A stretch of 46,972 bases of DNA from an uncultured Alphaproteobacteria bacterium (GTDB taxonomy: Bacteria; Pseudomonadota; Alphaproteobacteria; Bin95): assembly GCA_938083135.1 (NCBI GenBank), contig CALLKY010000134.1:1-46972 (forward strand), written 5' to 3'. The position numbers and the translations under genes are program-made. The notes below the pieces were generated by a model. That model saw nothing but the letters and a program-made list of their open reading frames with translations, made no database searches and was not told the DNA's origin. Numbering within the stretch: position 1 is the first letter of the stretch; every line of letters starts with the position of its first letter. This document shows, one piece after another, positions 11,674 through 14,050 of this stretch.

Positions 11674-12498
11674 ATGACCCGCAAAATCGCACTTCTGGCT
11701 GCCAGCGCCCTTCTGCTTCAAGGTGTTCCGGCTATTGCTGATGACATGCCGTTAATCGACGCCCACATCCATTACAGCCATGACGCCTGGGATATGTTGC
11801 CGCCCGATAAAGCCGTACAGGCATTGCGAGCTGCGGGTCTTACACAAGCATTCGTCTCCAGTTCCAGCGATCTTGGCACGCAGAAACTATATGCAGAGGC
11901 ACCTGACCTGATCGTGCCGGTGCTCCGCCCCTACCGGAAACGCGGCGAGACCGGGACCTGGCACAATGACCCGACCGTCGGCGATATGGTGGCGGACCTG
12001 CTTGCCAAGAACCGCTATGCGGGCATTGGCGAATTTCATGTATATGGCGAGGATGTGGAGAAGCCCGTTGTCCGCCGCGTCGTGCAGTTAGCCAAGCAAT
12101 ACGGAATTTTCCTGCACGCCCATTCGGATGCTGAGGCCGTAGACCGCATCTTCGCCCAAAACCCAGATGCCCGCGTGCTCTAGGCGCATTCAGGCTTTGA
12201 CGATCCAGAAGACGTGGCGGCAATGCTTGCCAAACATAAAAACCTCTGGTCAGACTTGGCCTTCCGCTCCGAGCATGGCGGCGGCGGCAAGGTTGATCCG
12301 GAATGGCGGAAAGCGTTCATGGCCTTCCCGGACCGCTTCATGATCGGCACGGATACCTTTACGCCGGAACGCTGGTTCTATGTGGCAGATCACGCCAATT
12401 GGTCCCGCGCATGGCTGGCTGACCTGCCGCCAGATGTCGCTGCAAAGATTGGTCATCAAAATGCCCGCACATTGGCAGATTGGGCGCTGAAACGGTGA
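11674..12498 (+). pseudogene. secreted amidohydrolase interrupted by an in-frame TAG
   Basis: ATG 11674 follows AGGAG by six to seven bases and opens with a signal peptide, TRKIALLAASALLLQGVPAIA then DD. The metal-dependent TIM-barrel hydrolase features are all present in one frame: IDAHIHYSH (strand 1 HxH), FLHAHSDAE, then TAG at 12181-12183 followed at once by AHSGFDDP, IGTDTFTPE, and a C-terminal KIGHQNARTLADWAL. Relatives usually read VLWAHSGF here, so TAG most likely replaces a TGG tryptophan codon. The first part encodes 169 residues and would lack the last barrel strands; the intact form would be 274. TAG ends several normal genes in the window, so recoding is unlikely. A sequencing error is possible. 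The next gene overlaps its end. Confidence 0.85.
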
Positions 12499-12896
12499 GA
12501 CTGCCAGGCTTGATTACGGGCGCTGTAGCACTTTTATCTACGCCAACACTTGCTGCTGCCAACTGCCCAATCGATGCGCCAATGGCGGCGGCGGGTGACT
12601 ACCAACTATCATACACGCTAACGCCAGCCCTACCGACGGTTGGCCAGCCATTTCAGATGACGATTGAGGCCTGTGGTCCAGCAAACGCACCCTATACCGG
12701 TCCTATATTGGTGGACGCGGATATGCCCGCCCATCGCCATGGCATGAACTACAAACCGACCGTCATCAGCACGTTGCCCGGCACTTATGTGGCCGAAGGC
12801 TTTTTGCTGCATATGCCCGGCGATTGGCGGTTCAAGTTCCGGTTAGCGGGCGCTGATGGTCCGGTTCGGCTGGCCCACGGACATGTGCAACCGTGA
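12495..12896 (+). CDS. secreted YtkA-like domain protein
   Basis: A 133-residue protein from GTG 12495, which overlaps the amidohydrolase stop as GTGA. A signal peptide (RLPGLITGAVALLSTPTLAA) precedes the mature part. The mature part has two cysteines (about 23 and 58) and an immunoglobulin-like beta pattern with DADMPAHRHGMNYKP and HMPGDWRFKFRL, which fit the YtkA-like/FixH-like class of small periplasmic proteins. The His/Met cluster could bind copper, but this is inference. It is coupled by 4-base overlaps to both neighbours and so is probably made together with the following di-heme peroxidase. It carries a single tryptophan. Confidence 0.75.
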   Translation: MRLPGLITGAVALLSTPTLAAANCPIDAPMAAAGDYQLSYTLTPALPTVGQPFQMTIEACGPANAPYTGPILVDADMPAHRHGMNYKPTVISTLPGTYVAEGFLLHMPGDWRFKFRLAGADGPVRLAHGHVQP

Positions 12897-14050
12897 TCCG
12901 CTTGCTCATCCTGGCAGCTGCAATGATTGGCGCGTGTGCGAACGCTCCATCCGCCATCGCCCAAGACGTAAGCTTCAGTGAGACTGAGCGGGCGGCCATC
13001 CTCCGCTTTGGTCCCTGGCCGCCGCTACCAAGCACTGACGCCAGCAACCGCGTATCTGGTGACGAAAAGGCGATCCGTCTCGGCCTGCAGCTGTTCAATG
13101 ATCCTAGGCTATCGCCATCAGGTCGCGTCGCTTGCGCAAGCTGCCATCAGCCGGAGCAAGCCTTTGCCGATGGTCGCCCGGTTGCCATCGGTGTTGCAAA
13201 GGGTGTCCGCAATACGCCTTCGCTCTTGGATACAGGCTTCAGTCGCTGGTTCGGTTGGGCAGGTGCTAATGACACGCTTTGGGGTGCCAGTATCCGTCCC
13301 ATCACTGCCGCTGCCGAAATGGCGAGCGCTGCCGAGCATGTTCAGACCCTGATTACGACGGACACAACGCTCGCCGCCGCCTTCACCCAAACATTTGGCG
13401 CAAGCGCTAAGGCAATGGGGGCGGAGCCAGCCCTTATGGCGGTTGGTAAAGCGCTTGCCGCATATCAGGAAACGCTGATCAGCAAACGAACGTCTTTTGA
13501 CCAATTCCGAGACGCCCTTGCGGCAGGCGATACCACCGGAACGTCCAAATACGCGGACAGTGCCAAACGTGGCCTTAAACTTTTCATTGGCGAAGGCCGG
13601 TGCAGCCTGTGCCATCTGGGCCCACGCTTCACCAATGGTGAATTTGACGACATTGGCATTCCGTTTTTTACCGGTCCCGGCAAGGTCGACAAAGGGCGCT
13701 ATGCGGGCATTCAGTATTTCAAGAAATCTGCATTCACCCGGCTTGGCGCGTATTCTGATGACCCGGCAGGTAAGGATAGCCCCGCCGCCATTCCATCCCA
13801 CCATGTCGCATTACAGGGCCGGGCGTTCGGATCCTTCAAGGTGCCCTCATTGCGTGGTGTTCAGGAAACAGCGCCCTATATGCACAACGGGACGCTAAAC
13901 ACGCTGCCAGAGGTCATCGACCACTATTCCAAAATGGACCAGGACCGCCTGCACATTGATGACGCCGCGATCCTCCGCCCCCTTAATCTTACGCCACAGC
14001 AAGCGCTTGACCTTGAAGCTTTTCTACGGAGTTTGTCACCAACGAAATGA
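12893..14050 (+). CDS. di-heme cytochrome c peroxidase, MauG/CcpA family
   Basis: A 385-residue protein from a GTG that overlaps the previous stop (GTGA). An N-terminal signal (RLLILAAAMIGACANAPSAIA) precedes two c-type heme motifs, CASCH (81-85) and CSLCH (227-231). WFGWAGANDTLWG and an EMAS segment lie between them, and SLRGVQETAPYMHNGTL near the end supplies the usual methionine and its loop. This is the bacterial cytochrome c peroxidase/MauG superfamily in the periplasm. Some members reduce peroxide; others oxidise tryptophan of a partner protein. The gene partner here is a small secreted protein, so either role is possible. Heme attachment would need the cell's general maturation system. 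Confidence 0.92.
   Translation: MIRLLILAAAMIGACANAPSAIAQDVSFSETERAAILRFGPWPPLPSTDASNRVSGDEKAIRLGLQLFNDPRLSPSGRVACASCHQPEQAFADGRPVAIGVAKGVRNTPSLLDTGFSRWFGWAGANDTLWGASIRPITAAAEMASAAEHVQTLITTDTTLAAAFTQTFGASAKAMGAEPALMAVGKALAAYQETLISKRTSFDQFRDALAAGDTTGTSKYADSAKRGLKLFIGEGRCSLCHLGPRFTNGEFDDIGIPFFTGPGKVDKGRYAGIQYFKKSAFTRLGAYSDDPAGKDSPAAIPSHHVALQGRAFGSFKVPSLRGVQETAPYMHNGTLNTLPEVIDHYSKMDQDRLHIDDAAILRPLNLTPQQALDLEAFLRSLSPTK

Follow-up and report, generated by a model that had tools for sequence, protein, structure and literature searches.

Why a gene for a secreted amidohydrolase should carry a stop codon in its middle is the question raised by a 46,972-nucleotide stretch of DNA from an uncultured alphaproteobacterium (assembly GCA_938083135.1, contig CALLKY010000134.1), referred to here at its full length as the window. 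The original prediction held that a TAG at 12181-12183 interrupts an otherwise intact frame and offered three options: a recent nonsense change, a read-through site, or a sequencing error. Comparison with relatives confirms the interruption and points to recent nonsense inactivation, arising independently in this lineage (or to null alleles that still segregate), of a gene for a secreted, metal-dependent enzyme. This is probably part of a parallel loss of the gene within the genus. The features of the interrupted gene are:

11674-12498, + strand: secreted Amidohydro_2 (PF04909) gene, interrupted; 274 codons if the TAG is counted as one, recognized by Pfam, structure model and homologs.
12181-12183, + strand: in-frame TAG at codon 170, a tryptophan codon in every one of the 106 relatives that could be aligned here.
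12184-12495, + strand: codons 171-274, 3' of the stop, encoding metal ligands H172 and D227; compared with the sister genome G003, differences are 25 synonymous and 1 nonsynonymous.

The TAG is in frame with both the ATG at 11674 and the TGA at 12496-12498. With the TAG treated as one residue for protein searches, the frame yields a 274-residue protein of which residues 93-267 match Amidohydro_2 at 46.6 bits (gathering score 26.4). The N-terminus, judged by eye, is signal-peptide-like. The structure model of the 274-residue protein is TIM-barrel-like and confident (mean pLDDT 87.6), with its closest solved fold being 3cjp, an uncharacterised amidohydrolase, and the other nearest folds being enzymes of the amidohydrolase superfamily; a search of solved structures by sequence returned no relative. 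Metal-ligand motifs lie on either side of the stop, as had been noted from the sequence: H31, H33, E120 and H148/H150 precede it, while H172 and D227 follow. Among 14 sequences compared, H31, H33, E120, H150, H172 and D227 are invariant and H148 is nearly so. Codon 170 falls at the end of a barrel strand, immediately before H172, a metal-ligand position in this family. The above-cut-off Pfam match, the conserved motifs and the barrel model align the protein with Amidohydro_2 of the amidohydrolase superfamily, whereas its signal-peptide-like start, its linkage to YtkA-like and MauG-like genes and its interruption set it apart from other members of the family.

The openness of the frame past the TAG is, taken alone, weak evidence; an open frame of 104 codons after a stop has a chance of about 5% at the base composition of the window. 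Homology makes a chance open frame untenable. Whole-genome and genome-collection searches returned 111 distinct relatives (window copy excluded), of which 106 could be used at the codon 170 column, and every one of these has the tryptophan that was expected before the A-H-x-G motif (an earlier subset gave 94/94). None of the aligned relatives stops at codon 170, which answers whether the protein normally ends there, and the TAG of the window is unique among the genomes examined. An in-frame stop of any kind is found in only two of the 111 relatives: G003 and L068 (OX638326.1), a distant relative in which TAG replaces a conserved tryptophan near codon 243 (window numbering). The L068 copy (L068:5001-5792, identical in sequence to L157 of G310) brings the broken family members to three; the two relatives nearest to it, L155 and L156, carry intact copies. 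With the window left out, the amidohydrolase has no significant excess of stops over its partner genes (2/111 versus 0/98, p 0.50).

The decoding of TAG in this genome appears ordinary. Release factor 1 (RF1) is intact, no CUA anticodon occurs among the 36 readable of 37 tRNA matches (the last is a contig-end fragment, and the assembly has gaps in which a suppressor tRNA may lie), and TAG terminates 58 of 178 long frames sampled over 447 kb of the genome, as well as several neighboring genes in both this genome and G003. No stable RNA structure was detected 3' of the TAG (z +1.0 versus shuffles). Since RF1 is intact, no suppressor tRNA was read, TAG is in normal use and stable RNA structure is lacking, termination at residue 169 is to be expected. 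That this organism would read TAG as an amino acid is favored only by the continuation of the frame and the expected tryptophan, and the idea was rejected on RF1, the tRNAs and stop usage as almost certainly wrong; the earlier view, in which general recoding is unlikely and TAG serves elsewhere as a normal stop, is upheld. A gene for release factor 2 (prfB) was not found in this assembly, rated 99.99% complete, and none was matched in G003 or G004. Nor does this genome contain a close match to the PBP1A-like gene that adjoins prfB in G002. The missing release factor was considered as a pointer to recoding and dismissed, as the neighbor of prfB is also missing and TGA terminates 66 of the 178 long frames; an assembly gap is the most likely cause of its absence.

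What turns a single oddity into a probable parallel loss, beyond what had been seen in the window, is the sister genome G003. G003 is of the same genus and is the closest relative among the genomes compared (89% DNA identity over 3.8 kb), and it is collinear with the window from ~5.7 to 20.0 kb. Its amidohydrolase has TGG at codon 170, yet it carries two lesions of its own:

11773-11775, + strand: codon 34, TAC in the window and TAA in G003.
12073-12084, + strand: codons 134-137, absent from G003 through a 12-base in-frame deletion.

The deleted segment includes R134, a highly conserved arginine kept by 97 of 106 relatives. By contrast, the window copy has a single lesion. Within the shared block, in-frame stops occur in the amidohydrolase alone, one in each genome; a comparison of the syntenic genes, in which 29 codons of one of them were unaligned, revealed no frameshift or other stop. 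Five genomes of the genus were compared (this genome, or G000, and G001 to G004): the amidohydrolase is intact in G002, carries stops in G000 and G003, and has no match in G001 and G004. The latter two, drafts of 90% and 96% completeness, also returned no match to the MauG-like partner, and both genes are likely absent from them. Outside the genus the rate of stops is about 1 in 109 relatives. At that rate, the chance that either of the two remaining genomes of the genus with this gene would also have a broken copy is about 2%; the coincidence is only moderately improbable, and the figure is no more than suggestive because the window was itself selected for its stop. The enzyme appears dispensable in the genus, as the sister seems to have lost its gene independently and two more genomes are likely without the cassette.

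Selection on the gene bears on the age of these lesions. The two copies differ by 62 synonymous and 10 nonsynonymous changes, for a dN/dS of 0.038 by Nei-Gojobori count, and the stretch 3' of the TAG is the most constrained. Relaxed selection, which a very young lesion need not show, was not detected by dN/dS between the two genomes. The low ratio limits the age of the lesions, since any period without constraint would make up no more than about 6% of the divergence. With dN/dS this low, either both lesions are recent or a product is still made; a low ratio is equally expected of a gene that is still expressed.

The competing accounts draw on this same constraint. A consensus or assembly error, in which the organism has tryptophan at codon 170 and an intact gene, would concern a single nucleotide of a draft assembly in 163 contigs. 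A stop results from about 3% of the single-base changes that the amidohydrolase gene can undergo, so that, with an error rate near 1e-5 (our own estimate), each draft genome should contain a few stops made by error; the strong constraint across the rest of the gene would also follow. It is harder to reconcile with G003, where a separate stop and a deletion affect the same gene and no other of the shared block, and with syntenic genes that compare without a frameshift or other stop. An error of this kind is unlikely, though it is the strongest of the alternatives. A read-through or regulated stop, by which a low level of full-length enzyme would be made past the TAG, would be in keeping with the codons 3' of the stop being the most constrained, with the TAG that replaces a conserved tryptophan in L068, and with the argument of Belinky et al. 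(PMC7918605) that some bacterial in-frame stops persist under purifying selection. The position of the stop, however, is common to no relative, and the stop of G003 differs in both codon and place. The lack of stable RNA structure, the lack of a visible suppressor tRNA and the intact RF1 speak against it further, and recency accounts for the constraint just as well. Read-through is thus improbable, and in its programmed form it was rejected because the position is unconserved and stable RNA structure is lacking. Improbable as well is that full-length amidohydrolase continues to be made at a low level, with in-frame stops that shift position serving as a reversible expression dial in several lineages. 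Of the three options originally offered, the recent nonsense change is strengthened by the invariant tryptophan, while read-through retains little beyond the low dN/dS.

A genuine nonsense mutation is the preferred reading. A G-to-A transition would have turned the invariant tryptophan codon into TAG very recently, and translation would be predicted to stop at residue 169. The truncated product would be without 38% of the barrel, including H172 and D227, and would presumably neither fold nor act. The sister species would have lost its amidohydrolase independently, through the other stop and the small deletion. The TAG may be fixed or may be segregating in the population. The locus offers a small, clean, apparent case of early parallel gene loss, with two single-step stops in sister species and intact neighbors, and it illustrates that a low dN/dS is no proof of a living gene.

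The amidohydrolase is the first gene of a three-gene cassette (11674-14050), in the order amidohydrolase, YtkA-like, MauG/MbnH-like:

12495-12896, + strand: YtkA-like gene, with a GTG start that overlaps the amidohydrolase TGA (GTGA) and a Pfam match too weak to reach the curated cut-off.
12893-14050, + strand: MauG/MbnH-like di-haem peroxidase gene, third in the cassette, intact.

The trio is present at 86-87 of 97 loci of relatives across the Alpha-, Beta- and Gammaproteobacteria, and no other widely conserved neighbor was found among these loci. Decay of the cassette as a whole is not supported, since the YtkA-like and MauG-like genes are intact in both this genome and G003, and the partner genes are intact in relatives. 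Owing to the GTGA overlap, the stop in the amidohydrolase may lower translation of the YtkA-like gene. A literature search found no description of a cassette of amidohydrolase, YtkA-like and MauG-like genes, to which the present case draws attention.

The phenomenon is itself already known. In Chlamydia trachomatis, aaxB and aaxC were inactivated recently and in parallel, and substitution rates bear no trace of it (Giles et al. 2009, PMC2720952). Similarly to aaxB/aaxC, the lesions described here are independent and recent in close relatives, one stop replaces a tryptophan, and no sign of relaxed selection is found. By contrast, the loss of activity in Chlamydia was shown by expression and concerns a host-restricted pathogen, whereas here the loss is predicted from the draft genome of an environmental alphaproteobacterium. 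Belinky et al. 2021 (PMC7918605) report that in-frame stops are common in bacteria, are under purifying selection and mostly seem short-lived, on the scale of polymorphism. Their filtered set holds stops at one position across several species, while in the present case the stop of each genome lies elsewhere. The finding in the window fits both the aaxB/aaxC case and the survey of Belinky et al.

The background of in-frame stops in this genome was gauged by an ab initio scan of the window and of 400 kb elsewhere, which returned one other clear case, a TAA inside an FG-GAP/RTX repeat protein. Extrapolation gives a genome-wide number of in-frame stops of order ten, which is unremarkable and could also arise from draft-assembly error. 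The TAA lies at L188:10265-10267 on the minus strand (contig C13 of this genome), and the FG-GAP/RTX repeats continue on both sides of it.
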